A stretch of DNA of 64,000 bases. Origin: Novosphingobium sp. 28-62-57 (lineage in GTDB: Bacteria; Pseudomonadota; Alphaproteobacteria; Sphingomonadales; Sphingomonadaceae). Positions within the stretch are counted from its first letter, which is position 1. Every line of letters starts with the position of its first letter. The notes under the pieces were generated by a model. It did no database searches, was not told where the DNA came from, and saw only the letters and a list, made by a program, of their open reading frames with translations. A program made the position numbers and the translations under genes. Location of the stretch: assembly GCA_002256985.1 (NCBI GenBank), contig NCGO01000009.1, positions 124,001 through 188,000 of the forward strand. The letters are read 5' to 3'. Positions 44,723-62,327 of this stretch are shown here, piece by piece.

Positions 44723-46176
44723 ACGATTCGGGGGAGCGAATGATGTTCAAGGAAACCGGGCGTGACGAGATGTTGGCCGCGCTGAATCTGCAGCGAGAGG
44801 CGTTCACGGCGGCCCGCCCGGAGGCGCTGTCTGTCCGTCATGACCGGCTTGAGCGCTGCGCGCGGATGCTGCTGGACCACGGCGAGGAATTTGCCCGCGC
44901 GATGAGCGCTGACTTTGGCCATCGCAGCCATGCACAATCGATGCTGACCGATGTGATGCCTGCGATGAGCCTGATCCGCTATTCACAGAAGCGGATGAAG
45001 GCGTGGAGCAAGCCGGAAAAGCGGCACGTGAACTTTCCGCTGAACCTTTTGGGGGCAAGGGCGGAGGTCCGCTATGAACCCAAGGGCGTGATTGGCGTGG
45101 TGGCACCGTGGAATTTCCCGGTGGGCCTGACGATGGGGCCGCTGGCGCAGGCCTTTGCCGCCGGAAACCGCGCGATGCTGAAGCCCAGCGAGTTTACCGA
45201 GCGGACATCTGAACTGATGGCGCAGCTTTTCCCGAAGTTTTTCGGGCCGGAGGAGGTCGTGGTGGTGCTCGGCGGGCCGCAGACCGGGCAGGATTTCTGC
45301 GCGCTGCCGTTTGATCATCTGCTGTTCACCGGGGCGACGTCTATCGGCAAGCATGTGCTGCATGCCGCGGCGGACAATCTGGTGCCGGTGACGCTGGAAC
45401 TGGGCGGCAAATCGCCGACGATCATGGGCCGCAGCGCCAATGTGGAGCGCGCGGCCGAACGCATCGCGCTGGGCAAGATGATGAATGCCGGGCAAATCTG
45501 CCTTGCGCCCGATTACATGCTGGTGCCCGAGGATATGGAGCATCAGGCAATTGGCGCGGTGCAGGCCAGTGTGGCGCAGATGTATCCGACGCTGCTGGCC
45601 AACGATGACTATACATCGGTCATCAATCGCCGCCATTTTGACCGGCTGACTGGGCTGGTGGACGATGCCGTGGCGAAAGGTGCGGAAGCCATCGTCGTCA
45701 ATCCCGGCAACGAGAATTTTGCTGGATCGAACGGCAATAAGATGCCGCTGACGATCCTGCGCAATGTGAACGACGACATGAAAGTGATGCAGGACGAGAT
45801 TTTCGGACCGATCCTGCCGGTGAAGACCTATCGCGGGATCGATCAGGCCATCGACTATATCAATGCTCATGATCGTCCGCTGGGGCTCTACTACTTTGGC
45901 GAGGATTCAGCCGAGCGCGAGACGGTGCTGGGGCGGACGATTTCGGGCGGCGTGACGGTCAACGATGTTATTTTTCATGTCTCGGCCGATGACCTGCCGT
46001 TTGGCGGGATCGGGCCTTCGGGCATGGGCAGCTATCACGGCGTCGAAGGGTTCCGCGCGTTCAGCCATGCGCGGGCGGTTTATAGCCAGCCCAAGATTGG
46101 GCTTGCGAAGATTGCCGGGTTGATGCCGCCTTATGGCGCGGCGACGGCGCGCACGCTGAAGATGCAGATCAAGTAG
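44719..46176 (+). CDS. Coniferyl-aldehyde-dehydrogenase-like aldehyde dehydrogenase
   Basis: 485 residues if it begins at the ATG at 44719 (ATGA overlap with the peptidase stop); starts at 44740 or 44743 behind GGGGGAG are equally possible. The dehydrogenase signatures are GVIGVVAPWNFPVGL, the general base E227 in LELGGKSP, and the nucleophile C261 in NAGQICLAPDY. The class with APDY is close to coniferyl aldehyde dehydrogenases, which oxidise lignin-derived aldehydes; that fits sphingomonad aromatics metabolism but is an inference. Confidence 0.87.
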   Translation: MNDSGERMMFKETGRDEMLAALNLQREAFTAARPEALSVRHDRLERCARMLLDHGEEFARAMSADFGHRSHAQSMLTDVMPAMSLIRYSQKRMKAWSKPEKRHVNFPLNLLGARAEVRYEPKGVIGVVAPWNFPVGLTMGPLAQAFAAGNRAMLKPSEFTERTSELMAQLFPKFFGPEEVVVVLGGPQTGQDFCALPFDHLLFTGATSIGKHVLHAAADNLVPVTLELGGKSPTIMGRSANVERAAERIALGKMMNAGQICLAPDYMLVPEDMEHQAIGAVQASVAQMYPTLLANDDYTSVINRRHFDRLTGLVDDAVAKGAEAIVVNPGNENFAGSNGNKMPLTILRNVNDDMKVMQDEIFGPILPVKTYRGIDQAIDYINAHDRPLGLYYFGEDSAERETVLGRTISGGVTVNDVIFHVSADDLPFGGIGPSGMGSYHGVEGFRAFSHARAVYSQPKIGLAKIAGLMPPYGAATARTLKMQIK

Positions 46177-46618
46177 CTTAGGATTCTGGAACGGGCCTCC
46201 GGAACGGTGAGGTTCGGTATTTTTCAGATATTGCGAAAAGGGGTTTCGCGCAGAGAACGCAGAGGAAGCAGAGATGAAGTGCAAGGCCGAAGGGCGATTG
46301 ACCCCAATGACCTTGGGAAAGCCTCAACGTTCGGATTTTTGAGGCGGCTGCGCCGCTGCTTCAACTTCTTCGCGATCTTTGCTCCCTTTGCGGGCTCTGC
46401 GCGAAACGTCTTCTTTGCATTGGCCTTACGGCAGGATCGTGGCGGCAGGGACAGTAGGTTAGGCATACGAATTATAAGGGCCGGTTTGAGGGTACGCATT
46501 GACCCGAAAAGGGGGAAAAGTGCCGTCGATAGCGGCTTCGTTGCAGCGCACACCACTTGCGCGAATGATCTGTCGGGACTAGGGCGCAGGCGAACAACGC
46601 AGATAAGCGAGTCAGCCC
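46177..46618. other. 442-base region upstream of nuoA with a repeat element and the operon promoter
   Basis: No gene. The first half carries a degenerate inverted repeat element (46243-46407). The second half (46408-46618) should hold the nuo promoter; a TTGACC at 46500-46505 is a possible -35 box but no clear -10 box is visible. Confidence 0.6.
46243..46407. repeat. Degenerate inverted repeat element upstream of nuoA
   Basis: Perfect 13-base terminal arms (GTTTCGCGCAGAG at 46243-46255, CTCTGCGCGAAAC at 46395-46407), with further imperfect pairing of purine-rich and pyrimidine-rich tracts inward. The layout suggests a small non-coding dispersed element; it carries no ORF for a transposase. 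Confidence 0.65.
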
Positions 46619-46993
46619 TTGGTCGATCTGTCTCAATACCTGCCGATCTTGATCTTTCTGGGCATTGCCCTGGCATTATCATCGGCTTTCGTGTTTCTGC
46701 CCATGGGCATCTCTCGCCTGACGGGCGCACACAACCCGAATGCCGAAAAGCTGAGCGAATATGAATGCGGCTTCCCCGCGTTCGAGGACCCGCGCAGCCA
46801 GTTTGACGTGCGGTTCTACCTCGTGGCGATCCTGTTCATCATCTTCGATCTGGAAGCGGCGTTCCTGTTCCCCTGGGCGGTGAGCCTGGGTGAGACGGGC
46901 TGGGCCGGGTGGACCACGATGATGATCTTCCTCGCTGAACTGGTGATCGGCTTTATCTACGCCTGGAAAAAGGGCGCGCTGGACTGGGAATGA
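46619..46993 (+). CDS. nuoA: NADH-quinone oxidoreductase subunit A
   Basis: 124 residues. The start is TTG at 46619, giving [12 protein letters not shown], a typical NuoA N-terminus; no ATG fits. Three membrane helices are visible and the conserved loop [40 protein letters not shown]. It is a membrane-arm subunit near the quinone site of complex I and the first gene of the operon. The stop overlaps nuoB as ATGA. A TTG start at the head of the operon could limit its translation. Confidence 0.96.
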
Positions 46994-47550
46994 GCAACAT
47001 GGCCACTTCTTCGCTCGTTGGTGCCGGTCAGGGTGCCGGTGCAATTACCGCTCCCGATCAGGCGTTTTTCGAAAGCCTCAATGCTGAAGTCAGCGACAAG
47101 GGTTTCCTTGTCACCAGCACCGAGGACCTGTTCCAGTGGGCGCGCACCGGATCGTTGTGGTGGATGACCTTCGGGCTTGCCTGCTGTGCGGTCGAGATGA
47201 TCCACGTGAACATGCCGCGTTATGACATGGAGCGCTTTGGCGTTGCCCCGCGCGCTTCCCCGCGTCAGTCGGACGTGATGATCGTGGCCGGCACGCTGTG
47301 CAACAAGATGGCCCCGGCGCTGCGCAAGGTCTATGACCAGATGTCGGACCCGAAGTATGTGATCTCTATGGGATCGTGTGCCAATGGCGGTGGCTATTAT
47401 CACTACAGCTACAGCGTTGTGCGCGGGTGTGACCGGATCGTGCCGGTGGACATCTATGTTCCCGGCTGCCCGCCGACCGCAGAAGCGCTGCTCTATGGCG
47501 TGATGCAGTTGCAGCGGAAGATTCGCCGTGTGGGTACGATTGAGCGCTAA
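46990..47550 (+). CDS. nuoB: NADH-quinone oxidoreductase subunit B
   Basis: 186 residues, start overlapping nuoA. It carries the ligands of the last iron-sulfur cluster (N2): C65 and C66 (ACCAVEM), C130 (GSCANGGG) and C160 (VPGCPPTAE). It passes electrons to quinone in the peripheral arm. An N-terminal extension of about 25 residues rich in small amino acids precedes the conserved part. nuoC follows after ten bases. Confidence 0.97.
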
Positions 47551-47560
47551 GGGGCAGGCG

Positions 47561-48295
47561 ATGACAGTTCTCCACTCTGCTCCGCGCTGGACCTCGAACG
47601 AGGGCGTGCTTGATACGCTGGTTGCCGCGCTGGGCGATATGGTCGTGGCTTCGAAGGAAGAGCACGGCGAAATCGTGCTGACCGTGGCGCGCGATCGTGT
47701 TGAGGATGCGCTGCGTCTGTTGCGCGATGAACACGAATACCAGCAGTTGATGGATATTGCGGGCGTTGATTACCCGCAGCGGGCAGAGCGTTTCGACGTG
47801 TGCTACTGCCTGCTTTCGGTCACGCGGAACCATCGGATCGTGGTGAAGGTCACCACCGACGAGGTTGCGCCGGTGCCGACCGTGACCACGCTGTGGCCCA
47901 ACGCCGGTTGGTATGAGCGCGAAGTCTATGACATGTTCGGCGTGCTGTTTGCGGGCAACCCGGACCTGCGCCGCATCCTCACCGACTATGGTTTTCAGGG
48001 GCACCCGTTCCGCAAGGATTTCCCGCTTACGGGCTATGTCGAGCTGCGCTATTCCGAAGAGGACAAGCGCGTGGTTTATGAGCCGGTGCAACTGGCGCAG
48101 GATTTGCGGCAGTTTGATTTCATGAGCCCGTGGGAAGGCGCGGATTACGTGCTGCCGGGTGATGAAAAGGCGGTGCAGGCGGCTCCGCCACCCAAAGTGG
48201 ATACGCCCAAGACGACCGAAAAGCCTGCCGATACCGGCGCTGGTGCAAAGGCCAACGCCGAGGCGGCCAAGAAGACCGATGGAGACGGCGCATGA
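47561..48295 (+). CDS. nuoC: NADH-quinone oxidoreductase subunit C
   Basis: 244 residues from the ATG at 47561, with GGGGCAGG just before it. The core has the conserved [12 protein letters not shown] and [13 protein letters not shown]. The last 35 residues are a low-complexity tail rich in K, A, P and T (from about VQAAPPPKV), not needed for the fold. nuoC and nuoD are separate genes here, unlike the E. coli fusion. Its stop overlaps nuoD (ATGA). Confidence 0.96.
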
Positions 48296-49503
48296 GCCTC
48301 TCGCTTGAACAATCGCCGACCACCGGCGATGATGTCATCACCAACTACACGATCAACTTCGGGCCGCAGCACCCGGCGGCGCACGGCGTTTTGCGCATGG
48401 TGATGGAGCTTGATGGCGAGATCATCGAACGCATCGACCCGCACGTCGGCCTGCTGCACCGCGGCACCGAAAAGCTGATCGAGCACAAGACCTACCTTCA
48501 GGCGCTGCCCTATTTTGACCGGCTCGATTACTGTTCGCCGCTCGCGATGGAGCATTCCTATGTGCTGGCGGTGGAAAAGCTGCTGAACATCGAGGTTCCG
48601 CTGCGCGCGCAGTATCTGCGCGTGCTGTTTGCGGAACTGACGCGCATCTGCAACCACATGCTCAACCTCGGTTCACATGTGATGGACGTCGGCGCGATGA
48701 CGCCGAACCTGTGGATGTTCGAAGTGCGCGAGGACTGCCTCAACTTCTTCGAACGCGCGAGCGGGGCGCGCATGCACGCAGCATGGTTCCGCCCCGGCGG
48801 CGTGCATCAGGACGTGCCGCTCAAGCTGCTGACCGACATTGCCGACTGGATCGACACGCGCCTGCACCCGCTGTTCAACGACGCGATGAGCCTCGTGGTC
48901 GACAACCGCATCTTCAAGCAGCGCAATGTCGATATCGGTGTGGTGTCGAAGGAAGACGCGCTGCGCTGGGGCTTTTCCGGGCCGATGATCCGCGGGTCGG
49001 GCATCGCGTGGGACTTGCGCAAGAGCCAGCCTTACGACGTTTATGACCGCATGGACTTTGCCGTTCCCGTCGGCACCAGCGGCGATTGCTATGACCGCTT
49101 CATGGTCCGCGTCGAAGAAGTGCGCCAGTCGGCCCGCATCATCCAGCAGTGCATTGCGCAGATGCCCGAAGGCCCCGTCGCCAGCACCGACCGCAAGGTC
49201 GTGCCGCCCAAGCGCGCCGAGATGAAGCAGTCGATGGAAGCGCTGATCCATCACTTCAAGCTCTACACCGAAGGCTTCCACGTTCCGGCGGGCGAAGTCT
49301 ATGTGGCAACCGAGAGCCCCAAGGGCGAATTCGGCGTCTATCTGGTGTCGGACGGCAGCAACAAACCGTACCGCTGCAAGATCCGCCCGACTGCGTTCAG
49401 CCACCTCCAGGCGATGGACTTCATGAGCGTCGGCCACATGCTGCCCGACGTGACCGCGATCATCGGCGCCATCGACGTGGTGTTCGGGGAGTGCGACCGG
49501 TGA
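48292..49503 (+). CDS. nuoD: NADH-quinone oxidoreductase subunit D
   Basis: 403 residues. Conserved features are [14 protein letters not shown] at the front, [14 protein letters not shown], the segment PYFDRLDY with the tyrosine near the quinone head, and the end [10 protein letters not shown]. It forms the quinone pocket with NuoB. The start overlaps nuoC and the stop overlaps the small NTF2-like gene (GTGA), so the operon is tightly coupled. Confidence 0.97.
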
Positions 49504-49850
49504 GCCATCTCGAAACCGCCAAGGCCATGATTGCCGCCTACAACGCGCAGGACGTAGATACCTACGTCTCTTACATGACCGACGATGCCTGCGAGGCGAA
49601 CTATCGCGGGGATGTGGTGCGCGAGGGCAAGGAGGGCACGCGCTCCGGGCTTGCTGCCGCGTTTGCACGTTGGCCACAGAACCATGCCGAGATCGTCGAG
49701 GCGCAGGCCATCGGCAATTATGTTTTGATGCGCGAGCATGTGACGCGCGGGCCGGCGACCGATGGTTCGGCGCTGGTGGAGCCGTTTGATGTGATCGCAG
49801 TCTATTCTTTCGAGGGCGACAAGTGCTCTCGGGTGGAGTTCATTCGATGA
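49500..49850 (+). CDS. NTF2/SnoaL-like protein inserted between nuoD and nuoE
   Basis: 116 residues starting with GTG at 49500, overlapping the nuoD stop (GTGA). Pattern: [33 protein letters not shown], then [20 protein letters not shown] and [20 protein letters not shown], which is the cone-shaped NTF2-like fold of the SnoaL/nuclear-transport-factor-2 group. These bind or convert small molecules, or serve as assembly factors. It is not a known complex I subunit. Position and coupling suggest co-expression with complex I. Confidence 0.78.
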
Positions 49851-50017
49851 GTGCTGTCGTAAAGTTCCTCCCCGAACCGGGGAGGGGGACCATCCGCAGG
49901 ATGGTGGAGGGGCACCCTCGTATTGACGCAACGCCGACAGGGCGGGATTTGGGGCCTGTGCCCCTCCACCAGCTACGCTGGTCCCCCTCCCCGTGCCGGG
50001 GAGGAATTTGTGGCTGA
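49847..50017 (+). other. Junction mini-ORF across the repeat before nuoE
   Basis: 56 codons. The ATG overlaps the stop of the NTF2-like gene (ATGA) and has GGAG at 49835-49838, eight bases upstream. It reads through the repeat and stops at 50015-50017, just inside nuoE (start 50010). It is probably a coupling relic and not a functional protein. Confidence 0.4.
49865..50006. repeat. Large inverted repeat before nuoE
   Basis: Arms of about 48-50 bases (49865-49914 and 49959-50006) are near-perfect reverse complements, and each arm folds on itself. The right arm ends in GGGGAGGAA, which serves as the nuoE ribosome site. Confidence 0.82.
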
Positions 50018-50678
50018 CCGCTTTATCGAACCCGACAGCCCGGAATTGCGCGCCCGTTGGGGTGGCTTTGCATGGACTGCCGAAAATGCCGAACAGGCCA
50101 AGGTGATCGTCGCGCGCTATCCGGCAGGGCGTCAGCGTTCGGCGGTGATGCCGCTGCTCGATCTGGCGCAGCGCCAGGTGGGCGCTGAGCTGAACACGCA
50201 AGGCTGGCTGCCGATTCCGGTGATGGAATATGTGGCCAAGTACCTCGACATGCCAGTGATCCGCGTGGTCGAAGTGGCGACGTTTTATACGATGTACAAC
50301 ATCGCGCCGATTGGCCGCTTCCACGTGCAAGTCTGCGGCACCACGCCGTGTATGCTGCGCGGGTCGGACGACATCATGGCCGCCTGCAAGGGCAAGGGCC
50401 TGAAGAAGGGCCACACCACGGCGGACGGCCTGTTCACGCTGACCGAGGTCGAGTGCATGGGCAATTGCGCATCGGCCCCGATGGTCCAGATCAACGATGA
50501 CAATTACGAAGACCTGACCGCCGCCGATATGGAGCGCATCCTTGACGAGCTGGCCGCAGGCAAGCAGCCGAAGACCGGCACGCAATTGCCGGGCCGTCAT
50601 ACGGTGGAACCGGCAGGGGCTTTGAGCAATCTGACGGCGATGGTTGATGCCAACTACGATTACCGGGGGGAGTGGTAA
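50010..50678 (+). CDS. nuoE: NADH-quinone oxidoreductase subunit E
   Basis: 222 residues from the GTG at 50010; the longer frame to 49923 would translate the repeat and is rejected. The ribosome site GAGGAA at 50001 belongs to the repeat arm. The binuclear cluster (N1a) ligands are in VCGTTPC and ECMGNC. It sits with NuoF in the NADH dehydrogenase module. A proline/threonine-rich tail ends the protein. Confidence 0.95.
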   Translation: MADRFIEPDSPELRARWGGFAWTAENAEQAKVIVARYPAGRQRSAVMPLLDLAQRQVGAELNTQGWLPIPVMEYVAKYLDMPVIRVVEVATFYTMYNIAPIGRFHVQVCGTTPCMLRGSDDIMAACKGKGLKKGHTTADGLFTLTEVECMGNCASAPMVQINDDNYEDLTAADMERILDELAAGKQPKTGTQLPGRHTVEPAGALSNLTAMVDANYDYRGEW

Positions 50679-50681
50679 GCC

Positions 50682-50786
50682 ATGAACCTGCTGCAACAAC
50701 ATCCGTTCGTGTCGAGCGAAGTCGAGACACTGTGCGCGCGGCTTCTCGACTTCGCTCGAAGCGAACGGGGAGGGTTTGACCTGTGA
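50682..50786 (+). other. Junction mini-ORF across the repeat between nuoE and nuoF
   Basis: 34 codons plus stop. The ATG lies four bases after the nuoE stop and has GGAG at 50669-50672. It runs through the palindrome and its TGA (50784-50786) overlaps the nuoF GTG. This preserves gene-to-gene coupling. Confidence 0.45.
50703..50768. repeat. REP-like palindrome between nuoE and nuoF
   Basis: 25-base arms beginning CCGTTCGTGTCGAGC pair with two mismatches. Same family as the element at 23841-23910. The GGGGAGGG just after it is the nuoF ribosome site. Confidence 0.85.
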
Positions 50787-52069
50787 GCCTTCAAGATAAA
50801 GACCGCATTTTCACCAACGTCTACGGCTTCCAGCCCTGGAACCTGAAGGCTGCGCAGGCGCGCGGCGATTGGGACAATACCAAGGCCCTGATGGAGCGCG
50901 GACAGGACGCGATCATCGAGGAAATCAAGGCTTCCGGCCTGCGCGGTCGTGGCGGTGCGGGCTTCCCCACCGGGATGAAATGGTCGTTCATGCCCAAAGA
51001 AAGCAAGGACGGCCGTCCGAGCTTCTTGGTGATCAACGCCGACGAATCCGAGCCGGGTTCGTGCAAGGACCGCGAAATCATCCGCCACGATCCGCACAAG
51101 CTGATCGAAGGCGCGCTGGTGGCGGGCTATGCGATGCGCGCGCGCGCTGCCTACATCTACATTCGCGGCGAATATATCCGCGAGGCCGAAACGCTGTTCG
51201 CCGCCGTACAGGAGGCTTATGACGCGGGCCTGATCGGCAAGAATGCTTGCGGTTCGGGCTACGATTTCGACGTATTCGTCCATCGCGGTGCGGGTGCTTA
51301 CATCTGCGGTGAAGAAACCGCGATGATCGAAAGCCTTGAAGGCAAGAAGGGCCAGCCGCGTCTTAAGCCGCCATTCCCGGCAGGCGCAGGTCTCTATGGC
51401 TGCCCGACCACGGTCAACAACGTGGAATCCATCGCGGTTGCGCCGACGATCCTGCGTCGTGGCGCTTCGTGGTTCTCCTCGTTCGGGCGTGATAACAACA
51501 AGGGCACCAAGCTCTTTCAGATCAGCGGGCACGTAAACCGTCCCTGCGTGGTCGAAGAAGAGATGAGCATCCCGTTCAGCGAGCTGATCGAAAAGCACTG
51601 CGGCGGCATTCGCGGCGGGCGTGACAACTTGCTGGCGGTGATCCCCGGCGGATCGTCGGTGCCGCTGGTTCCGGCCGCCGAAATCTGGGACGCGCCGATG
51701 GATTTCGACGGCCTCAAGGCGGTCGGCTCCGGCCTTGGCACTGCTGCGGTGATCGTCATGGACAAGTCCACCGACATCGTCCGTGCGATTGCCCGCCTGT
51801 CATACTTCTACAAGCACGAATCTTGCGGCCAGTGCACGCCCTGCCGCGAAGGCACCGGCTGGATGTGGCGCGTGATGGAACGCCTGCGCACCGGCGATGC
51901 CGACGTTGGCGAAATCGACATGCTGTTCAACGTAACCAAGCAGGTCGAAGGCCACACGATTTGTGCGCTGGGCGATGCGGCGGCTTGGCCGATCCAAGGC
52001 CTGATCAAGCACTTCCGCCCCGAGATCGAGCGCCGGATTGCCGAGAATGTGCGGGAGGCAGCAGAGTAA
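50783..52069 (+). CDS. nuoF: NADH-quinone oxidoreductase subunit F
   Basis: 428 residues from the GTG at 50783, with GGGGAGGG upstream. The NADH/FMN site is seen as [15 protein letters not shown] and the cluster N3 ligands in [11 protein letters not shown] and a later cysteine in HTICALGD. It accepts electrons from NADH. Its stop overlaps nuoG by one base (TAATG). Confidence 0.97.
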
Positions 52070-54078
52070 TGCCTAAAGTCAAAGTGGATGGCGTAGAGCT
52101 CGAAGTCCCGGCAGGCGCTACTGTCCTGCAGGCGTGCGAGCTGGCCGGGAAGGAAATTCCGCGCTTCTGCTATCATGAGCGGCTGAGCATTGCTGGCAAT
52201 TGCCGCATGTGTCTGGTCGAGGTGAAGCCCGGGCCGCCCAAGCCGCAGGCTTCGTGCGCGCTTCCGGCCACCGAGGGCCAAGAAATCCGCACGGATTCCG
52301 AGATGGTCAAGAAGGCGCGGGAAGGGGTGATGGAGTTTCTCCTGATCAACCACCCGCTCGATTGCCCGATCTGCGATCAGGGCGGCGAGTGCGATCTTCA
52401 GGACCAGTCGGTTGCCTATGGGCGCGGTGCTTCTCGTTATGACGAGAGCAAGCGTGCGGTGACCGAGAAGTACATGGGGCCGCTGATCAAGACGACGATG
52501 ACGCGCTGTATCCACTGCACCCGCTGCGTGCGGTTCAGCGAGGAAGTGGCGGGCGTGGACGAAATCGGCGCGTTTTATCGCGGCGAGACGATGCAGATTT
52601 CCACTTATCTGGAAAAGGCTGCGGCGCACGAATTGTCGGCCAATGTGATCGACCTTTGCCCGGTCGGCGCGCTGACTTCGCGCCCTTATGCGTTCGAGGC
52701 GCGGCCGTGGGAGCTGAAGAAGACGCTGTCGATCGACGTATCGGACGCCATCGGATCGAACATCCGGCTCGACAGCCGGGGCCGTGAAGTGATGCGCATT
52801 CTGCCTCGCGTGAATGATGACGTGAACGAGGAGTGGCTGTCTGACCGTGCGCGCTACATGGTCGATGGCTTGACACGCCGCCGTCTGGACAAGCCGTGGT
52901 TGCGCCGTGATGGCAAGCTGGTTGCGGCTACGTGGGCCGAGGCTTTTGACGCTGTGGCCAAGATCAATCCGGGGTCGTCCGTGGCAGTTATCGCTGGCGA
53001 TCTGGTCGATTGCGAGACGATGTTTGCGGCCAAGAAGTTGGCTGGAGCGCTGGGTTCGACCTTGCTTGAAGGCCGCCAGACCGGTTTGGCCTATGATACG
53101 TCGAACATAGCTGCGGTGAACTTCAACTCGACGCTGGCTGGCATCGAGGATGCGGACGCGGTGCTGATCGTGGGGTCAATGATCCGCGACGAAGCGCCGC
53201 TGCTCAACACTCGCCTGCGCAAGGCAGTGAAGAAGGGCGGACGCGTGTTCATCGTCGGCCCGCAGTGGGATCCGACTTATCCCGCGACCTTCATCGGCGA
53301 CGATGTGGGCGTGCTGGGCAATCTGCCCGAAGCGGTGATCGAGGCATTCGGCAACGCTGAACGTCCGGCGATCATCGTGGGCGGGGCAGGGCTGGCCAAG
53401 GGCGGTCTGGAAGCTGGCCTTGCTTTTGCCGAGCAGTTCAATCTGGTGCGTGAGGGCTGGAACGGCTTCAATGTGATCCACATGGCTGCAAGCCGCATGG
53501 GCGGGTTGATGCTGGGCTATGCGCAACCGGGCGGCCTTGCCGATCTGGTTGCGGCCAAGCCGAAGATGGTGATTTCGCTGGGCGCGGACGAGGTGGACTT
53601 CACCAAGTTTGCAGGCTCGATGATCGTGCACATCGGCCATCATGGTGACAAGGCGGCGCATGCAGCCGACGTGATCCTGCCTGCCGCCGCGTTCAGCGAG
53701 AAGGACGGCACTTACGTCAACACCGAAGGCCGCGTGCAGTATGCCGAGAAGGCCGTGTTCGCGCCCGGCGATGCCCGCGAGGACTGGACGATCCTGCGCG
53801 CGATGGCCGATGCGCTGGGCGTTTCGGTCGGCTTCGACAGCTTCGAACAGCTTCGCGCGGCGATGGTTGCCGAAGTTCCGGCATTGGGCGTGGAAGGTCT
53901 GGCCGATTACGGTGCGTTGCCTTCGGCTCTTTTGGGCGCGACGGCAGAGGGCGTGATTGCGGGCTATCCGATCAAGGACCGCTATCTGACCAACGCCATC
54001 GCGCGCTCCAGCCCGACGTTGCAGCGCTGCTCGGCAGAACTGTTGCATGGTGAAAGCTTCGCGGAGGCTGCGGAATGA
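52069..54078 (+). CDS. nuoG: NADH-quinone oxidoreductase subunit G
   Basis: 669 residues from the ATG at 52069. The N-terminal clusters are all visible: the 2Fe-2S ligands in CYHERLSIAGNCRMC, 4Fe-4S ligands in CPICDQGGECDLQ and CIHCTRCVRFSEEV, and VIDLCPVGALTSRP. The C-terminal part is a molybdopterin-oxidoreductase-like fold that has lost its cofactor. It is the largest subunit of the peripheral arm. GGAGG at 54063, within its end, precedes the following mini-ORF. Confidence 0.97.
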   Translation: MPKVKVDGVELEVPAGATVLQACELAGKEIPRFCYHERLSIAGNCRMCLVEVKPGPPKPQASCALPATEGQEIRTDSEMVKKAREGVMEFLLINHPLDCPICDQGGECDLQDQSVAYGRGASRYDESKRAVTEKYMGPLIKTTMTRCIHCTRCVRFSEEVAGVDEIGAFYRGETMQISTYLEKAAAHELSANVIDLCPVGALTSRPYAFEARPWELKKTLSIDVSDAIGSNIRLDSRGREVMRILPRVNDDVNEEWLSDRARYMVDGLTRRRLDKPWLRRDGKLVAATWAEAFDAVAKINPGSSVAVIAGDLVDCETMFAAKKLAGALGSTLLEGRQTGLAYDTSNIAAVNFNSTLAGIEDADAVLIVGSMIRDEAPLLNTRLRKAVKKGGRVFIVGPQWDPTYPATFIGDDVGVLGNLPEAVIEAFGNAERPAIIVGGAGLAKGGLEAGLAFAEQFNLVREGWNGFNVIHMAASRMGGLMLGYAQPGGLADLVAAKPKMVISLGADEVDFTKFAGSMIVHIGHHGDKAAHAADVILPAAAFSEKDGTYVNTEGRVQYAEKAVFAPGDAREDWTILRAMADALGVSVGFDSFEQLRAAMVAEVPALGVEGLADYGALPSALLGATAEGVIAGYPIKDRYLTNAIARSSPTLQRCSAELLHGESFAEAAE

Positions 54079-54197
54079 TGAGCCTTCTAGCTGTCAATCA
54101 CAACCACAGCCGTTCGTGTCGAGCGAAGTCGAGACACGCTGGCGCTGCGGATGGTGTCTCGACTGCGCTCGACACGAACGGGGGTAGGGTGCTGTGA
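54078..54197 (+). other. Junction mini-ORF across the repeat between nuoG and nuoH
   Basis: 39 codons plus stop from the ATG at 54078 (or 54075, which overlaps the nuoG stop as ATGA). GGAGG lies at 54063-54067. The TGA at 54195-54197 overlaps the nuoH GTG. Confidence 0.45.
54110..54181. repeat. REP-like palindrome between nuoG and nuoH
   Basis: 28-base arms (54110-54137 and 54154-54181) pair with one mismatch. Same family as the elements at 23841 and 50703. Confidence 0.87.
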
Positions 54198-55240
54198 CTT
54201 CATTTTTCCAAGGTCTTGGCCTCTCGTATGAGATGGCCTGGGGCGTGGCTACCGTGTGCGGCATCCTGCTGATCGCGTTCCCGCTGATGCTGGGCGTTGC
54301 GATGATCATCTATGCCGACCGCAAGATCTGGGCGGCGATGGCGTTGCGCAAGGGGCCGAACGTGGTGGGGCCGCTGGGCTTGCTGCAGTCGTTCGCGGAC
54401 GGTCTGAAGGTGTTCCTGCAGGAAACCATCATTCCTTCGGCGGCGAACAAGGGCCTGTTCCTGATCGCGCCGATCATCACCTTTACCGTCGCGCTGATGG
54501 CGTGGGCGGTGATCCCGTTCAATTCGGGCGCTATTCTGGCCGATATCAACGTTGGCCTGCTCTACGTGCTCGCGATTTCGTCGCTCGGCGTTTACGGGGT
54601 GGTGATCGCGGGCTGGTCGTCGAATTCGAAATACCCGTTCTTCTCGGCGATGCGCGCTTCGGCGCAGATGATTTCCTATGAAGTCTCGATCGGGTTCATT
54701 CTGATCTGCGTGGTGCTGTGGGCGGGGTCGTTCAACCTGAATGACATCGTGCAGGCGCAGAAGGGCCACGTGTTCGGCATCGTCAACGGCTTCGTCGCGA
54801 ACCCGCTGCTGTTCCCGATGTGGGTGATGTTCCTCATCTCGGGCATGGCCGAAACCGCACGCGCGCCGTTCGACCTGACCGAGGCGGAATCGGAACTGGT
54901 TGCCGGGTATCAGACCGAATACTCGTCGATGGCCTTCGCGCTCTACTGGCTTGGCGAATATGCCAACGTGCTGCTGATGTGCGCGCTGAACGCCGTGCTG
55001 TTCTGGGGCGGATACCTGCCGCCGCTCGACATTCCGGTGCTCTATCTGGTGCCGGGTTTCGTGTGGCTGCTACTCAAGATCCTGTTCTTCTTCTTCATCT
55101 TCAGCTGGGTAAAGGCGACCGTCCCGCGCTATCGCTACGACCAGCTGATGCGCCTTGGCTGGAAGATCTTCCTGCCCACCTCGCTGCTATTCGTGGTGCT
55201 GGTGAGTGGTTGGTTGATGCTGACGAGGTTTGGAGTGTGA
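54194..55240 (+). CDS. nuoH: NADH-quinone oxidoreductase subunit H
   Basis: 348 residues from the GTG at 54194, after GGGTAGGG. It has eight or nine membrane helices and the conserved [31 protein letters not shown] and the acidic loop [20 protein letters not shown], which links quinone reduction to proton pumping. Its stop overlaps the following lipoprotein gene (GTGA). Confidence 0.97.
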
Positions 55241-55563
55241 AATTTATGCTCCTAACTCCAATTGCGCTGTTGGCCACGGCTTGTGGCCAAAGCACCGTAG
55301 ATACTGGTCGTTATCAGATGTCTGGTGACCGGGTTATCGACACTCAGACGGGTTGCGTTGTTGAGCGTCAACTTGACATGGTAAAGATGGAATATCGGGT
55401 AAACGCATATAACCCGTTCAACAAAGACGATGCGACCTGTGCTGCTTTGAGTTCACCTATGCCAATTGATAGCAGGTCTGAGGCTGAGAAAGAGCAGGCT
55501 GACAAAGAGGTCCAAGCCGCAATCGACGTGTTGTCAAAGCCAACGGATAGAAGCACCCAATGA
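55237..55563 (+). CDS. Small lipoprotein inserted between nuoH and nuoI
   Basis: 108 residues from the GTG at 55237, overlapping the nuoH stop; the stop overlaps nuoI (ATGA). The N-terminus is a lipoprotein signal with LLATAC (cysteine 16). The rest is polar with two cysteines in QTGCVVERQ and DATCAALSS and a helical charged end. Hand counts give 43-53% G+C in its sequence, lower than the nuo genes. It matches no complex I subunit I know. It is tightly coupled on both sides, so it must be co-translated with nuo. Confidence 0.72.
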
Positions 55564-56045
55564 CCGTCTCGCAACTCATCAAAAGCTTTACGCTTTGGGA
55601 ATTCCTCAAGGCGCACTGGCTGACCTTGAAGTATCTCTTCAAGCCCAAGGCGACGATCAACTACCCGTTCGAGAAGAACCCGCTTTCCCCGCGCTTCCGT
55701 GGTGAACATGCGCTGCGGCGTTATCCCAACGGCGAAGAGCGCTGCATCGCGTGCAAGCTGTGCGAGGCGGTGTGTCCGGCGCAGGCGATCACCATCGAGG
55801 CCGAACCCCGCGCCGACGGCAGCCGCCGCACCACACGCTATGACATCGACATGACAAAGTGCATCTTCTGCGGCTTCTGCCAGGAAGCCTGCCCGGTCGA
55901 TGCCGTGGTCGAAGGGCCAAACTTCGAATACGCGACCGAAACGCGCGAGGAGCTGCTTTACGACAAGGCCAAGCTGCTCGCGAACGGGGACAAGTGGGAG
56001 CGGGCGATTGCCGCGAACCTTGAAGCCGATGCGCCGTATCGCTAG
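55560..56045 (+). CDS. nuoI: NADH-quinone oxidoreductase subunit I
   Basis: 161 residues. Two ferredoxin-type 4Fe-4S motifs are intact: [16 protein letters not shown] and [16 protein letters not shown] (clusters N6a and N6b). It feeds electrons to NuoB. The start overlaps the small lipoprotein gene (ATGA). Confidence 0.97.
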
Positions 56046-56058
56046 GGGGCCGATCAAC

Positions 56059-56214
56059 GTGACCAACAGGCACCAAGACCCGTTCGTGTCGAGCCCTTCG
56101 ACTGCCTGCCTCTGGCAGGCGCTCAGGATAAACTTCGGCCAATCGGCCGAAGTCGAGACACTTGCGCGCGGCCTCTCGACTTCGCTCGAGGCGAACGGAG
56201 GTAGAGAATCATGA
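56059..56214 (+). other. Junction mini-ORF across the compound repeat between nuoI and nuoJ
   Basis: 51 codons plus stop. The GTG lies 13 bases after the nuoI stop behind a G-run (56046-56050). The frame passes through the whole compound repeat and its TGA (56212-56214) overlaps the nuoJ ATG. Confidence 0.4.
56080..56198. repeat. Compound REP-like element between nuoI and nuoJ
   Basis: Starts with the CCGTTCGTGTCGAGC core and ends with GCGAACGG like its relatives, but a further repeat-like segment of about 50 bases (with CTGCCTGCCTCTGGCAGGCG) is inserted after the first arm. Confidence 0.75.
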
Positions 56215-56828
56215 TCCAGGTATTTGCCTTCTATCTCTTCGCCACGCTCTGCATCTTCAGCGGTGCGGTGACGATCCTTGCGCGCAATCCGGTGCATTCG
56301 GTGCTCTGGCTGATCCTCGCGTTCTTCAACGCTGCCGGCCTGATGGTGCTGGTGGGGGCGGAGTTCATCGCGATGCTGCTGGTCATTGTCTATGTCGGCG
56401 CGGTTGCGGTGCTGTTCCTGTTCGTGGTGATGATGCTCGACATCGACTTTGCGGAACTTCGGGCAGGGTTCATCAAGAACTTCCCGCTGGGCATTGCGCT
56501 GGCGGTGGTGCTGTTCGTCGAACTGTTCGTCGGCCTTGTCGTGCATGGCGCGGGCGGGGTTGAGCTGGGCGTTGCCAGCGGTATGGCGACGCAAGCGGCG
56601 GACATGTCGAACATTCAGGCCATCGGCGCGCTGCTCTACACGCGCTACCTGTTCCTGTTCGAAGCGGCGGGCATCATCCTGCTGGTCGCCATGATCGGCG
56701 CCATCGTGCTGACGCACCGTGAGCGCAGCGGCACGCGCGGGCAGAAGGTGTCCAAGCAGAACGCGCGCCGTCCTGAGGACGCAACGATCAACATGCAGCC
56801 GGAAAGCGGCAAGGGAGTTGTGCTGTGA
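56211..56828 (+). CDS. nuoJ: NADH-quinone oxidoreductase subunit J
   Basis: 205 residues, ATG at 56211 preceded by GGAGG at 56196-56200. It has five membrane helices with [19 protein letters not shown] and the conserved glycine-rich helix [18 protein letters not shown], part of the proton-channel connection. The C-terminal tail is polar. AAGGGAG at 56811 within its end sets up the next start. Confidence 0.96.
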
Positions 56829-56941
56829 ATTGCGCCAATCCCCAATCCCCGATCGTGTCGAGCGTAGTCGAGACACTGTGCGCGGCTTCTCGACTTCGCT
56901 CGAAGCGAACGGATGTGGTTTTGCAGGAGGCCGCACGATGA
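56825..56941 (+). other. Junction mini-ORF across the repeat between nuoJ and nuoK
   Basis: 38 codons plus stop. The GTG overlaps the nuoJ stop (GTGA) with AAGGGAG seven bases upstream; the TGA at 56939-56941 overlaps the nuoK ATG (ATGA). Confidence 0.47.
56849..56912. repeat. REP-like palindrome between nuoJ and nuoK
   Basis: Arms begin CCGATCGTGTCGAGC and end GCGAACGG; pairing is imperfect. Same family as 50703-50768. Confidence 0.8.
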
Positions 56942-57243
56942 TCGGCATCGAACACTATCTGGTCGTCAGCTCGATCCTGTTCGTGCTGGGCGTGCTGGGG
57001 ATTTTCCTTAACCGCAAGAACGTGATCATCATCCTGATGGCGATCGAACTGATCCTGCTTTCGGTGAACATCAACTTCGTCGCGTTCAGCGCGTTTCTGA
57101 ACGATCTGGTCGGACAGGTCTTTGCGATGTTCGTGCTGACCGTGGCGGCGGGCGAGGCTGCCATTGGCCTTGCTATTCTGGTCATCTATTTCCGTGGTCG
57201 CGGCACGATTGCCGTGGACGACGTCAACCGGATGAAGGGCTGA
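56938..57243 (+). CDS. nuoK: NADH-quinone oxidoreductase subunit K
   Basis: 101 residues from the ATG at 56938, behind a strong AGGAGG at 56925. Three membrane helices; the conserved glutamates are in [12 protein letters not shown] and [11 protein letters not shown]. It forms part of the proton channel. The nuoK frame is also open upstream through the repeat, but the start with AGGAGG gives the normal length. nuoL follows after nine bases. Confidence 0.96.
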
Positions 57244-57252
57244 GTTGGGGCA

Positions 57253-59301
57253 ATGTCTTCCATCCTGATTATCGTTTTCCTGCCGCTGCTGGCAGCGATC
57301 ATCGCCGGGCTTGGCAACAAGCGCATGGGCGCGGTGCCCGCCAAGGTCATTACGACCGGGGCACTGTTCATTTCGTGCGCGCTGTCCTGGCCGATTTTCC
57401 TCGGCTTCATGGGCGGCTCTGCCGAAGCCAGCGTCACGCCGGTGCTGCAGTGGGTAAAGTCGGGTTCGCTCGACTTTGACTGGGCGCTCCGGGTTGACAC
57501 GCTGACTGCGGTCATGTTGGTGGTTATCACCAGCGTCTCGGCGCTCGTCCACCTGTACTCTTGGGGGTACATGAGCGAGGAGCCGGATTGCCCACGTTTC
57601 TTCGCCTACCTCTCTCTGTTCACCTTTGCCATGCTGATGCTGGTGACGGCCGACAACCTCGTGCAGATGTTCTTCGGGTGGGAAGGCGTGGGCCTTGCCT
57701 CGTACCTGCTGATCGGTTTCTGGTTCCGCAAGCCAAGCGCAAACGCCGCCGCGATGAAGGCTTTCGTGGTCAATCGCGTGGGCGACCTTGGCTTCATGAT
57801 GGGCATTTTCGGGACGTTTCTGGTGTTCGGCACCGTTTCGATCCCGGCAATTCTTGAAGCCGCGCCCGGCATGGCCGGATCGACCATTGGTTTCCTCGGC
57901 TATCGTCTCGATACGATGACCGTGCTGTGCATCCTGCTGTTCATCGGCGCGATGGGCAAATCGGCGCAGCTTGGCCTGCACACGTGGTTGCCAGACGCGA
58001 TGGAAGGCCCGACCCCGGTTTCGGCGCTGATCCACGCGGCGACGATGGTCACCGCCGGTGTGTTCATGGTCTGCCGCCTGTCGCCGATGTTCGAAGTCAG
58101 CCCGACTGCGCTGGCCATGGTGACCTTCGTGGGCGCGATGACCTGCATCTTTGCGGCTACGGTCGGCACGACGCAGACCGATATCAAGCGCGTGATCGCC
58201 TATTCGACCTGTTCGCAGCTGGGCTACATGTTCTTTGCGGCGGGCGTGGGCGCTTATGGCGCATCGATGTTCCACCTGTTCACGCACGCCTTCTTCAAGG
58301 CGCTCCTGTTCCTGGGCGCAGGATCGGTGATCCACGCGATGCACCATGAGCAGGACATGCGGTACTATGGCGGCCTGCGCAAAAGCATCCCGTTGACCTA
58401 CTGGGCGATGATGATGGGCACGCTGGCGATTACTGGCGTGGGCATTGTTGATGTGTTCGGCTTTGCCGGGTTCTATTCGAAAGATGCCATCCTTGAAGCC
58501 GCCTATGCCAAGGGCACCGAGCTTGGCTATTTCGCTTTCTTCATGGGCATCTTCGCCGCGCTGCTAACCAGCTTCTATTCGTGGCGTCTGATTTTCCTGA
58601 CGTTCCACGGCAAGCCGCGCTGGGAGCAGTCCGAGCATATCCAGCACGCGGTTCATGAAGCGCACGGCCATGACGACCATGCCCACGGACACGACGATCA
58701 CGCCCATGCGCACCATCACGATGAGCACAGCGACGGCACGGCAGGCTATCACCCGCACGAAAGCCCGCTGAACATGCTCGTTCCGCTGGGCGTGCTGTCG
58801 GTTGGCGCAGTGCTGGCCGGGTTCGTGTTCCACCATTCGTTTATCAGCGAAGGTACCGGTGCGTTCTGGATGGGTTCGCTGGTGTTCGATGAGCACACGA
58901 TCCATGCGATGCATGAAGTGCCGACGTGGGTGAAGTGGGCACCGTTTGTGGTGATGGCGACCGGCTTGCTGATCGCATGGTATGCCTACATCAAGAACAC
59001 CCGCTTCCCCGCCGCGTTCGTCGAGCAGTTCGGGTTCCTGCACAAGTTTCTGCTGAACAAGTGGTACTTCGACGAACTCTATCACTACATCTTCGTCGTC
59101 CCCGCGATGTGGCTGGGCCGGGTGTTCTGGAAGGTTGTCGATCAGGGCGTGATCGACCGGTTCGGCCCGAACGGGGCTGCATCGATCGTGGCCTTGGGCA
59201 GCCGCGCCGCCGTCAAGCTCCAGTCGGGGTATCTTTATAGCTATGCGCTGGTCATGCTCGTCGGCCTTGTCGGCGCGATCAGCTGGGTGATCGCACAATG
59301 A
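57253..59301 (+). CDS. nuoL: NADH-quinone oxidoreductase subunit L
   Basis: 682 residues with many membrane helices; the antiporter-like core shows [35 protein letters not shown] and [20 protein letters not shown]. Between helices a histidine-rich loop (residues 462-502) has 16 histidines in 41 residues with many aspartates. It is the distal proton pump with the long lateral helix. The stop overlaps nuoM (ATGA). Confidence 0.97.
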
Positions 59302-60860
59302 ATGGGTTTCTTGGGACCGGTTTCCCGATCCTCTCACTAATGCTGCTGGTGCCGCTGCTGGGCGCGGTGGCCTGCCTTGTCATGCCGCGCGAACAGGCGC
59401 GCAGCGTTGCGCTGATTGCCACGCTGATTGACTTTGTTCTGGGCGTAATCCTCTGGGCCAATTACGATATTGGTGGCGCACAGTGGCAGTTTACCGAAAG
59501 CGCCGCGCTGTTTGCAGGCTTCTCGTGGAAGCTGGGCATTGATGGCATTGCGCTGCTGCTGATTGCACTGACCGTGTTCCTGATGCCGATCTGCATCGGG
59601 GCCAGCTGGACATCGATCGACAAGCGCGAAGGCGAGTACTACGCGGCGTTTCTGGCGATGGAAACGCTGATGATTGGCGTGTTTGCCGCGCAGGATATCT
59701 TCCTGTTCTACATCATGTTCGAAGCCGGCCTGATCCCGATGTACCTGATCATCGGCGTGTGGGGCGGGGCTGATCGCATCTATGCCAGCTACAAGTTCTT
59801 CCTCTACACGCTGCTCGGATCGGTGCTGATGCTGATCGCGATGTTCTGGATGGTGAACGAAGCAGGCACGACCGACATTCCGACGCTGATGGCCTACAAC
59901 TTCCCGGCACAGGCGCAGACGTGGCTGTGGCTGGCGTTCTTTGCCAGCTTTGCCGTGAAGATGCCGATGTGGCCGGTGCACACCTGGCTGCCCGATGCGC
60001 ACGTTCAGGCCCCTACCGGTGGTTCGGTGATCCTGGCGGGCGTGCTGCTGAAGATGGGTGGCTATGGCTTCATCCGCTTCTCGCTGCCGATGTTCCCGGA
60101 AGCTTCCGCCCAGTTCGCGCCGTTGGTGTTCTTCATGTCGATGGCGGCCGTGGTGGTCACCTCGCTGATCGCGCTGGTGCAGACCGATATGAAGAAGCTG
60201 ATCGCCTATTCGTCTGTCGCGCACATGGCGATTGTGACGGTTGGCCTGTTCGCGTTCAACCAGCAAGGCCTCGAAGGCTCAATGCTGATCATGCTCAGCC
60301 ATGGTCTGGTGGCGGGCGCGCTGTTCCTGAGCGTGGGCGTGATTTACGACCGCCTGCACACGCGCGAGATTGCGCGCTATGGCGGCTTGTCGATCAACAT
60401 GCCGTATTACGCGGTGTTCTTCCTGCTGTTCACGATGGCCTCCATCGGCCTGCCGGGGACGAGCGGGTTTGTCGGCGAATTCCTTTCGCTGCTGGGCATT
60501 TACCAGATTTCGAGCTGGGTTGCGCTGGTCTGCACCACCGGCATCATTCTGGGCGCGGCCTATATGCTCTACCTCTATCGCCGCGTGGCCTATGGCGAGC
60601 AGAAAAACGCCGATGCCGCCGCGATGCCCGATCTCGACAAGCGCGAGTGGGCGATGATGATCCCGCTGGCTGCCGTGGTGTTGTGGATGGGGGTGTACCC
60701 CGAAAGCTTCATCGCCCCGATGCGCAAGGACATTGCCGCGCTTGATGCGCGCCTTGCGCAGGCCAAGCCCAAGGGCGATGCCCAACCTACTGCTGGCCAA
60801 GGAACTTCCGGAAAGCCGATGGCAAATACTCATGAAGCCGCGCACGGGGAGGCACACTGA
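59298..60860 (+). CDS. nuoM: NADH-quinone oxidoreductase subunit M
   Basis: 520 residues, antiporter-like. Conserved features include [37 protein letters not shown] and [16 protein letters not shown]. It is a proton-pumping membrane subunit. A hydrophilic tail of about 40 residues ([17 protein letters not shown]) ends it. Stop and the nuoN start overlap by one base. Confidence 0.97.
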
Positions 60861-62323
60861 TGGACTTCGCCCGTTCGCTGGCGCTGACTGCGCCTGAAAT
60901 TCTGCTGTCCGTGTCGGGCCTTGTGTTGCTGATGGTGGCGGCATGGGGTGGCGACAAGGCCTCGCGCCTGATCTCGATTGCGGCCGTGGCCGTGCTGACT
61001 GCCTGTGCGTTCCTGACCGCGCCGACGCTGTGGGGACAGGCGATGGGGGCTGAGGTTTCGGCCTTTGGCGGGCAGCACCGGGCCGATGCCTTTGCGGCGT
61101 TCGCCAAGCTGCTGATCTATGCCAGCGCCGGCGTGACGCTGATCATCGCGCAGCCATTTTTTGACAAAGCAAGGGCGATGCGGGCGGAGTTTCCGTTGCT
61201 CGTGCTGTTTGCCTCGCTTGGCATGGGGATGATGGTTTCGGCAGGCGATCTGCTGGCGCTGTACATCGGGCTCGAACTGAACAGCCTTGCGTCATATGTG
61301 CTGGCATCGTCGCTGCGCACCGATGAACGTTCGGCGGAATCGGGCCTCAAGTACTTCGTGCTGGGTTCGCTCGCTTCGGGCATTCTGCTTTTCGGCATGA
61401 GCCTGACCTATGGCTTTACCGGCACCACCAGCTTTGCCGGGATCAATGCCGCGCTTTCGGGCGGGCTGCCCACGGGGGCTACCTTTGGTCTGATCTTCAT
61501 GCTGGCAGGCCTAGCCTTCAAGATCAGCGCCGCGCCGTTCCACATGTGGACGCCAGACGTGTATGAAGGCGCGCCGACGCCGGTGACGACGTTCTTTGCC
61601 ACGGCATCGAAAGTATCGGCGCTTGGCCTGCTGATGCGCGTGGCGTTCGAGGCGTTTGGCAACCAGACGCAGGCGTGGCAGCAGGTCGTGATCTTCATGG
61701 CGCTGCTTTCGATCGTGATCGGTGCGCTGGGCGCGATTGGTCAGAACAATATCAAGCGCCTGATGGCCTATTCGTCGATCAACAACGTCGGCTTCATTCT
61801 GATCGGCCTTGCCACGGCGACGCGGGCAGGGGCCTCGGCGATGCTGGTCTATATCGCGATCTATGTGGCGATGTCGGTGGCGGGCTTTGTGGCCGTGCTG
61901 CTGCTGCGCGATGAAAATGGCCAGCAGGTTGAGGCGATTTCGGATCTGGCGGGGCTTTCCAAAACGCGTCCGTGGATTGCGCTGGCGATGGCTTCGGTGA
62001 TGTTCAGCCTTGCCGGCATCCCGCCGCTGTTCGGCTTCTGGGGCAAGTTCGTGGTGTTTCAGGCAGCCGTGCAGGCCGACATGATCGCGCTGGCGGCCAT
62101 CGGTATTGCAGCATCGGTGATTGGCGCGTTCTATTACCTCAAGGTCGTCAAGGTCATGTATTTTGACGAGGCGGTCGATGTGGTGAAGGGCCAGGGCGAA
62201 ATGTCGCACACCGTGCTGCTGGTGCTGTCCAGCTTGGCCATTTCGCCGCTGGGTTATCTTGGCACCAAGTGCCTGGGCACGCTGGCGGACTATGCCGCCG
62301 CTGCGCTGTTCCCGGTCGGTTGA
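60860..62323 (+). CDS. nuoN: NADH-quinone oxidoreductase subunit N
   Basis: 487 residues, the third antiporter-like subunit, with LYIGLELNSLASYVLAS, FHMWTPDVYEGAPTPVTTF and NIKRLMAYSSINNVGF. It ends the nuo set. Four bases after its stop lies the likely start of birA, so the downstream genes are in the same transcription unit. Confidence 0.97.
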   Translation: MDFARSLALTAPEILLSVSGLVLLMVAAWGGDKASRLISIAAVAVLTACAFLTAPTLWGQAMGAEVSAFGGQHRADAFAAFAKLLIYASAGVTLIIAQPFFDKARAMRAEFPLLVLFASLGMGMMVSAGDLLALYIGLELNSLASYVLASSLRTDERSAESGLKYFVLGSLASGILLFGMSLTYGFTGTTSFAGINAALSGGLPTGATFGLIFMLAGLAFKISAAPFHMWTPDVYEGAPTPVTTFFATASKVSALGLLMRVAFEAFGNQTQAWQQVVIFMALLSIVIGALGAIGQNNIKRLMAYSSINNVGFILIGLATATRAGASAMLVYIAIYVAMSVAGFVAVLLLRDENGQQVEAISDLAGLSKTRPWIALAMASVMFSLAGIPPLFGFWGKFVVFQAAVQADMIALAAIGIAASVIGAFYYLKVVKVMYFDEAVDVVKGQGEMSHTVLLVLSSLAISPLGYLGTKCLGTLADYAAAALFPVG

Positions 62324-62327
62324 GCTG

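Follow-up and report, generated by a model that had tools for sequence, protein, structure and literature searches.

How can genes that are coupled through overlapping stop and start codons come to hold palindromic repeats between them and still remain coupled? The question is raised by the nuo operon (nuoA–N, 46619–62323) in a 64,000 nt stretch of contig NCGO01000009.1 from Novosphingobium sp. 28-62-57, hereafter the window, where palindromes occupy five intergenic spacers. An initial annotation, made from the sequence of the window alone, noted a short open reading frame (ORF) across each of these spacers and proposed that the old start sites of overlapping genes remain upstream of the repeats, where they now open a coupling peptide. 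Across 142 nuo loci, 44 of 49 palindromic inserts were spanned by an open frame leading from the upstream stop to the downstream start. Such near-universal crossing suggests that mainly those insertions survive that let ribosomes pass. We consider it probable, at roughly 75%, that repeats between coupled genes persist mainly when termination–reinitiation is relayed through a mini-cistron, and the interpretation in the initial annotation is supported.

Coordinates, codon counts, starts and stops of all five window mini-ORFs were as first described (Table 1). Three starts sit on the upstream stop (ATGA at 49847 and 54075, GTGA at 56825), and those at 50682 and 56059 lie 3 and 13 nt past it. Shine–Dalgarno (SD)-like sequences precede them, four clear (GGAG, GGGGGGAG, GGAGG and AAGGGAG) and the fifth, ahead of 56059, a G-run, again as first read. 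The mini-ORF stop overlaps the next start as RTGA in four of the five cases; in the fifth, the TGA lies inside nuoE, within GTGGCTGA. The remaining nuo junctions overlap or have gaps of ≤10 nt, as also first noted, with small extra genes forming two of these overlaps. Four of five distances in one frame class are weak evidence when the window is taken by itself, and the comparative sets are strong.

The 142 loci were drawn from the same genus, the same family, named contigs and three sister species, and nearly all belong to the Sphingomonadales. Duplicate loci (L083–L085) and short loci (L161–L189) were dropped before counting, as were the non-sphingomonad loci among L117–L160, of which L119, L123, L124, L130 and L135 were retained; L115, labelled only Alphaproteobacteria, was kept. 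L093 and L227 are seemingly one contig and both are within the 142, with neither contributing to the palindromic inserts. Among 234 inserts of 40–300 nt, 49 were palindromic (arms ≥16 nt) and 185 fell below this cut-off. An insert passed if an ATG or GTG start lay −3 to +16 of the upstream stop and the frame’s stop ended −3 to +10 of the downstream start. With one fixed downstream start, 43 of the 49 passed, in counts not corrected on a tree, compared with 17.4 ± 3.2 of frame-randomised copies (maximum 28 in 2000 sets) and 10.0 ± 2.7 of shuffled insert sequences (maximum 20). The check proposed in the initial annotation, whether the frames stay open more often than shuffled repeats, thus came out in its favour.

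Stop-poor, GC-rich repeats might yield open frames by chance, and the palindrome arms, read by eye, do lack stop codons. Within the 43 passing inserts, a stop before the new start was present in 4 cases in the mini-ORF frame, compared with 33 and 34 cases in the other two frames, which are thus closed in about 78%. Openness is therefore not simply a product of stop-poor repeats. Since the real count also exceeds the maximum of all frame-randomised sets, chance is the least credible of the alternatives considered here.

The frames are not only open but end at a particular place. In 38 of the 49 palindromic inserts the mini-ORF overlaps the next start by 4, 1 or 8 nt (d = 3, 0 or 7), the −4, −1 or −8 nt spacing of termination–reinitiation pairs. 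SD-like pairing was present ahead of 46 of the 49 new starts, compared with 20% of random positions within inserts, and NTGA occurs at the upstream stop in 32 of 49. Merging similar inserts at one junction reduced the 49 to 43 clusters, of which 38 pass, the misses all being single-member clusters; single linkage on shared stretches of ≥20 nt gave 11 sequence groups. A preceding set, which shares members with this one and leaves out A/B, D/E and E/F, behaved alike: the frame stops on the new start in 17 of its 20 palindromic inserts (expected 6.3), and 17 of 20 fall in one length class (binomial p 3e-6 at one third). With a loose threshold, 76 of 80 inserts in that set pass, and two of the four counted misses (L237 J/K and L097 C/D) are mis-called starts. 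Below the palindrome cut-off, 12 of 18 inserts with arms of 12–15 nt were spanned, as were 126 of 167 with arms <12 nt, which include real small genes; the lowest shares in this last class were at A/B (1/6), I/J (12/25) and B/C (4/7).

A different solution, prolongation of the upstream protein at its C-terminus, was sought and rejected, with one doubtful case (L086 nuoC) in 1,816 gene ends. When N-termini were surveyed alongside, 28 genes had no start close to where one was expected, most of them truncated or weakly matching.

Repeat sites outside nuo provide a control. Same-strand gene pairs with a repeat of the main window family between them were taken from automatic gene calls and split by whether or not a start overlaps the upstream stop; the codon-usage gene finder recovered the assigned starts of all 14 nuo genes and the SnoaL-like gene, and missed a 108-aa ORF. 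At sites with such a start, the stop of 20 of 25 mini-ORFs lies ≤8 nt from the start of the next gene (14 in exact overlap), the size of this class being enriched in part by pattern searches for ATGA or GTGA 8–36 nt before the repeat. Excluding two nuo cases leaves 18 of 23 (12 exact). At control sites lacking the overlapping start, with spacers ≤200 nt, the corresponding frame ends likewise in 7 of 35 (3 exact), or in 6 of 33 when the nuo E/F and I/J sites among them are removed. The two classes differ with Fisher p values of 4e-6 and 8e-5 (4e-6 for 20/25 vs. 7/35), in counts uncorrected for phylogeny and in which sites of different species may be homologous. The outcomes that the initial annotation had named as refuting its proposal, early stops in the same repeats or a lack of excess over other sites, were not what the comparisons gave, although L240 (G/H and I/J), L244 (E/F) and L094 (I/J) are real exceptions.

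If the repeats entered overlapping junctions, relatives lacking them should preserve the older arrangement. We compared 40 same-genus nuo loci, some of them incomplete. At G/H, 31 of 33 repeat-free loci have a 4-nt overlap (ATGA or GTGA), the exceptions being L041 (1-nt overlap) and L049 (+17 nt), and at J/K, 31 of 40 same-genus loci have a 4-nt and 6 of 40 a 1-nt overlap. Most E/F junctions read TAAg(cc)ATG or TAATG, and six loci have small ORFs there; at I/J of repeat-free loci the stop is followed by 9–28 nt and then ATG. The predicted ancestral overlap thus held at G/H and J/K, took a different form at E/F and was absent at I/J. From these junctions, the mini-ORF starts at 50682, 54075 and 56825 coincide with the former starts of nuoF, nuoH and nuoK, and 56059 is at most one or two bases from the old nuoJ start, with GTG in place of ATG. 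Retention of old starts therefore stands for three spacers and nearly for a fourth; before nuoE, relatives without a gap read TAATGG, and the comparison does not support an old start at 49847.

Close relatives show that the repeats turn over while the frame is kept. The sister species L380 has 14 Nuo proteins, of which 12 are ≥90% identical to those of the window (range 81–99% for all). Its E/F repeat is homologous to that of the window, and different palindromes occupy X/E, G/H, I/J and J/K. Its mini-ORFs end at +7 (X/E), +3 (E/F), +3 (G/H), −2 (I/J) and +3 (J/K) relative to the next start. The I/J repeat of the window, at 165 nt, has homologous copies of 111 or 112 nt in L381 and L382, which lack its nested in-frame stretch of 54 nt (18 codons). 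At J/K, the window and L381 carry inserts whose lengths are 3 nt apart, again preserving the frame.

Passages of PMC10666635 and PMC12548453 describe coupling as strongest at −4 to about +3 nt, and those of PMC10666635 also describe −4, −1 and −8 spacings as enriched and ~20 nt as nearly abolishing coupling in six tested pairs. By this distance dependence, a 100-nt hairpin insert is expected to break coupling, and a mini-cistron that joins the old and new starts would re-establish it. We therefore envisage that mobile palindromes of several unrelated families insert widely, including at the stop/start overlaps of translationally coupled genes. The old start, with its SD sequence inside the upstream gene, would then open a mini-cistron through the repeat, which would end on the new downstream start (usually in a 4-, 1- or 8-nt overlap) beside a second SD-like sequence. 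Ribosomes leaving the upstream gene would restart on the mini-ORF and open the hairpin as they read through it, then terminate at the downstream start and reinitiate there. In this manner the coupling of subunits would outlast the insertion, and the peptide itself would probably have no function. What the comparisons show is the geometry, its excess over chance, the behaviour of control sites within and beyond the operon, the junctions of repeat-free relatives and the recurrence; translation of the mini-ORFs, reinitiation and the fitness reason are what we infer from this pattern.

The closest competitor is an anti-polarity role, in which translating the insert keeps Rho and RNases off the hairpin, fusing with or running into the next gene is harmful, and the stop/start overlap is a by-product. 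The palindromic inserts do fold strongly (median minimum free energy −65 kcal/mol), the rarity of early stops in them is equally predicted, and I/J, which lacks an ancestral 4-nt overlap, is still on-pattern, with 10 of 12 palindromic inserts spanned. Mere avoidance of a harmful overlap is disfavoured because early-stopped mini-ORFs are rare, though an early stop is the easiest harmless state. We favour reinitiation over hairpin unwinding or Rho protection because the stops sit exactly on the starts in most inserts and because the same repeats at same-strand control sites are seldom open to the next start. Anti-polarity is accordingly unlikely, albeit the most serious of the alternatives.

Several observations weigh against a relay through reinitiation. 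Translation of the insert to avoid Rho-dependent polarity predicts a nearly equal pattern. The literature disagrees on distance, since studies cited in a review, as given in passages of PMC12548453, report little or partial loss of coupling at longer distances, including little loss as far as +25 nt, and the SD-like sequences at nearly all new starts could let downstream genes initiate alone. Five nuo inserts miss the pattern: L240 at C/D, G/H and I/J, L244 at E/F and L094 at I/J. The L240 G/H frame overruns the nuoH start, its I/J frame ends 34 nt early, and its C/D relay opens with TTG, although that TTG frame does reach the new start; the L244 mini-ORF stops after 4 codons, and the L094 insert has no start. 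Outside nuo, 5 of 23 start-overlap sites fail, and 8 of 48 control-class sites carry an exactly overlapping mini-ORF with an ATG or GTG ≤20 nt after the stop, so relays occur in the control class too. L240 (G071) is the only genome among the 142 loci in which the G/H and I/J palindromes are both off-rule, perhaps reflecting relaxed coupling or very recent insertions.

In the mycobacterial interspersed repetitive units (MIRUs), a small ORF overlaps its neighbours at both ends, and insertion is aimed at NTGA stop/start sites. A coupling ORF at a mobile repeat thus has a precedent, published by Supply et al. 1997 (Mol Microbiol 26:991). Passages of PMC12548453 describe the MIRU as a mobile short repeat at a start codon, whose small in-element ORF is coupled at −4 nt with minimal impact of the insertion. 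The nuo inserts resemble MIRUs in that a short ORF is coupled to its neighbours by stop/start overlap (44/49 spanned, 38/49 overlapping by 4, 1 or 8 nt).

Might the sphingomonad repeats, as MIRUs do, bring along an ORF of their own, inserted with the element as a cassette? In nuo, 8 of 10 left cores share one reading frame (PFVSSEVET-like), as a cassette would predict, but genome-wide frames 0, 1 and 2 of the left core occur 10, 4 and 6 times. The right core is read in frames 0, 1 and 2 in 4, 5 and 4 nuo cases and 3, 6 and 7 times genome-wide, and all 11 sequence groups of inserts are involved. A cassette is already largely refuted and very improbable. Whereas the MIRU ORF lies inside the element, the sphingomonad palindromes fall into several unrelated groups, their core is read in all three frames, and the mini-ORF frame derives from total insert length and flanks. 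They differ further in that convergent genes flank 50 of the 82 copies classified in this genome and in that different repeats recur at the same junctions. The initial annotation called coupling through a mini-ORF an unusual way for REP-like elements to enter an operon and cited no precedent; with MIRUs published, the principle is already known. What differs is that the frame is not encoded by the element, that unrelated repeats follow the rule and that the rule behaves like a filter on insert length.

The mini-ORFs could alternatively encode functional small proteins, and many relatives carry non-repeat ORFs of about 35–60 aa at E/F. Where two species hold different repeats at one junction, however, the mini-ORF peptides differ too, and none of the five in the window has a Pfam match at E 0.01. 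We regard this alternative as slightly more remote still than the cassette.

The layout also recalls bicistronic design, a synthetic leader cistron in which SD1 precedes a short ORF with SD2 in its end and a stop/start overlap, and translation of the leader melts structure. That a short ORF can serve to bring in ribosomes is mentioned in passages of PMC12548453. The nuo relays share the order SD1, short ORF, SD2 and stop/start overlap, but are natural and made by repeat insertion. Termination–reinitiation at overlapping gene pairs, as treated in passages of PMC6728339 and PMC10666635, likewise involves ATGA, TAATG and 8-nt overlaps in complex-subunit operons; in nuo, a relay cistron made by a repeat separates the two genes. 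Rickettsia palindromic elements, according to passages of PMC10969869, are similarly tolerated in translated sequence with the frame kept, but form in-gene fusions, unlike the intergenic nuo palindromes with their separate cistrons.

More tentatively, overlapping junctions may act as a general frame filter, which any repeat family enters and in which mainly relay-making lengths stay, repeatedly and with turnover between sister species. Relays may then also have seeded the small in-operon ORFs that occur at these nuo junctions (about 35–90 aa, most with overlaps at either end), a possible route to the birth of small genes within operons. The inserts amount to dozens of natural replicates of an overlap interrupted by insertion and then rebuilt via a mini-cistron. 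The need that has been argued for stop/start overlap in complex-subunit operons thereby becomes readable from evolution and directly testable. They also show a way in which selfish palindromes can inhabit a core respiratory operon. The MIRU precedent means that the spread over unrelated repeats, rather than the principle, is the new part.

Four of the five window palindromes form one family with the core TCGAGCGNAGTCGAGA, present at 100 forward and 90 reverse sites in the same genome (≤1 mismatch). The palindrome before nuoE belongs to a separate family with 39 matches, and its right end, GGGGAGGA, is SD-like for nuoE (start 50010). In 62 full main-family copies of this genome the outward end is CGAACGG[GA], with a G/T-rich stretch after it, and can thus help to make an SD-like sequence for the following gene. 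Copies inside called genes number 6 of 82 in this genome and 27 of 179 in a wider set. The frequent placement between convergent genes suggests a terminator-like or mRNA-end role, or tolerance there. Repeat matches <100 bases from a contig start in G049, G358, G381, G382 and G427 suggest assembly breaks at the repeats.

Repetitive extragenic palindromic (REP) sequences and bacterial interspersed mosaic elements (BIMEs) are high-copy, mostly extragenic palindromes, with a RAYT gene flanked by the same repeat. The sphingomonad repeats are likewise short palindromes of high copy number and mostly extragenic, but no repeat-flanked RAYT gene was found in this genome. A RAYT-type transposase was considered as mobiliser and rejected, as the genome has a single Y1_Tnp gene with no repeat core within 1.5 kb. 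Inverted repeats are present in the elements, as a miniature inverted-repeat transposable element (MITE) would have, and target-site duplications sought around the 62 full copies gave no signal, with the element boundaries uncertain. We therefore call the repeats REP-like and assign them to neither REP nor MITE. To our knowledge, the mini-cistron rule is not among the described features of REP sequences. An Rfam scan of 46000–63000 returned zero families at the gathering score. Among the titles and abstract beginnings listed in a literature search, none concerned these sphingomonad repeats, three short core strings had no match in the texts searched, and the passages of PMC4741004 covered contain nothing on them.

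Table 1 Mini-ORFs, palindromic repeats and extra small genes of the nuo operon (positions in the window).
Feature	Position	Strand	Description
Mini-ORF 1	49847-50017	+	56 codons; start ATGA overlapping upstream stop; TGA 50015-50017, 5-7 nt inside nuoE
Mini-ORF 2	50682-50786	+	34 codons; from old nuoF start position to GTGA at new nuoF start 50783
Mini-ORF 3	54075-54197	+	40 codons; from old nuoH start ATGA to GTGA at new nuoH start 54194
Mini-ORF 4	56059-56214	+	51 codons; ends in ATGA at nuoJ start 56211
Mini-ORF 5	56825-56941	+	38 codons; from GTGA (old nuoK start position) to ATGA at nuoK start 56938
Palindromic repeat before nuoE	49862-50009		CCTCCCCG...CGGGGAGG family; arms 49862-49892 / 49979-50009
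Palindromic repeat nuoE/nuoF	50703-50768		TCGAGCGAAGTCGAGA family
Palindromic repeat nuoG/nuoH	54110-54181		TCGAGCGAAGTCGAGA family; arms 54110-54137 / 54154-54181
Palindromic repeat nuoI/nuoJ	56079-56198		TCGAGCGAAGTCGAGA family; split by nested 54 nt
Palindromic repeat nuoJ/nuoK	56849-56912		TCGAGCGAAGTCGAGA family
SnoaL-like gene, nuoD/nuoE	49500-49850	+	GTGA and ATGA overlaps with neighbours; Pfam SnoaL_2 2.6e-13
108-aa ORF, nuoH/nuoI	55237-55563	+	GTGA and ATGA overlaps at both ends

Small extra genes occur in the operon besides the mini-ORFs. The 108-aa ORF between nuoH and nuoI had no Pfam match at E 0.01 and was negative by tblastn in the 40 same-genus relatives; by eye, it is lipoprotein-like. 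The SnoaL-like gene was found by tblastn within the nuo operon of at least 68 of the 142 loci. The non-repeat ORFs at E/F of relatives (e.g., L031, L041, L042 and L043) mostly overlap, or nearly overlap, their neighbours at both ends, and the E/F gaps of L047 and L049 are longer, at 374–410 nt.

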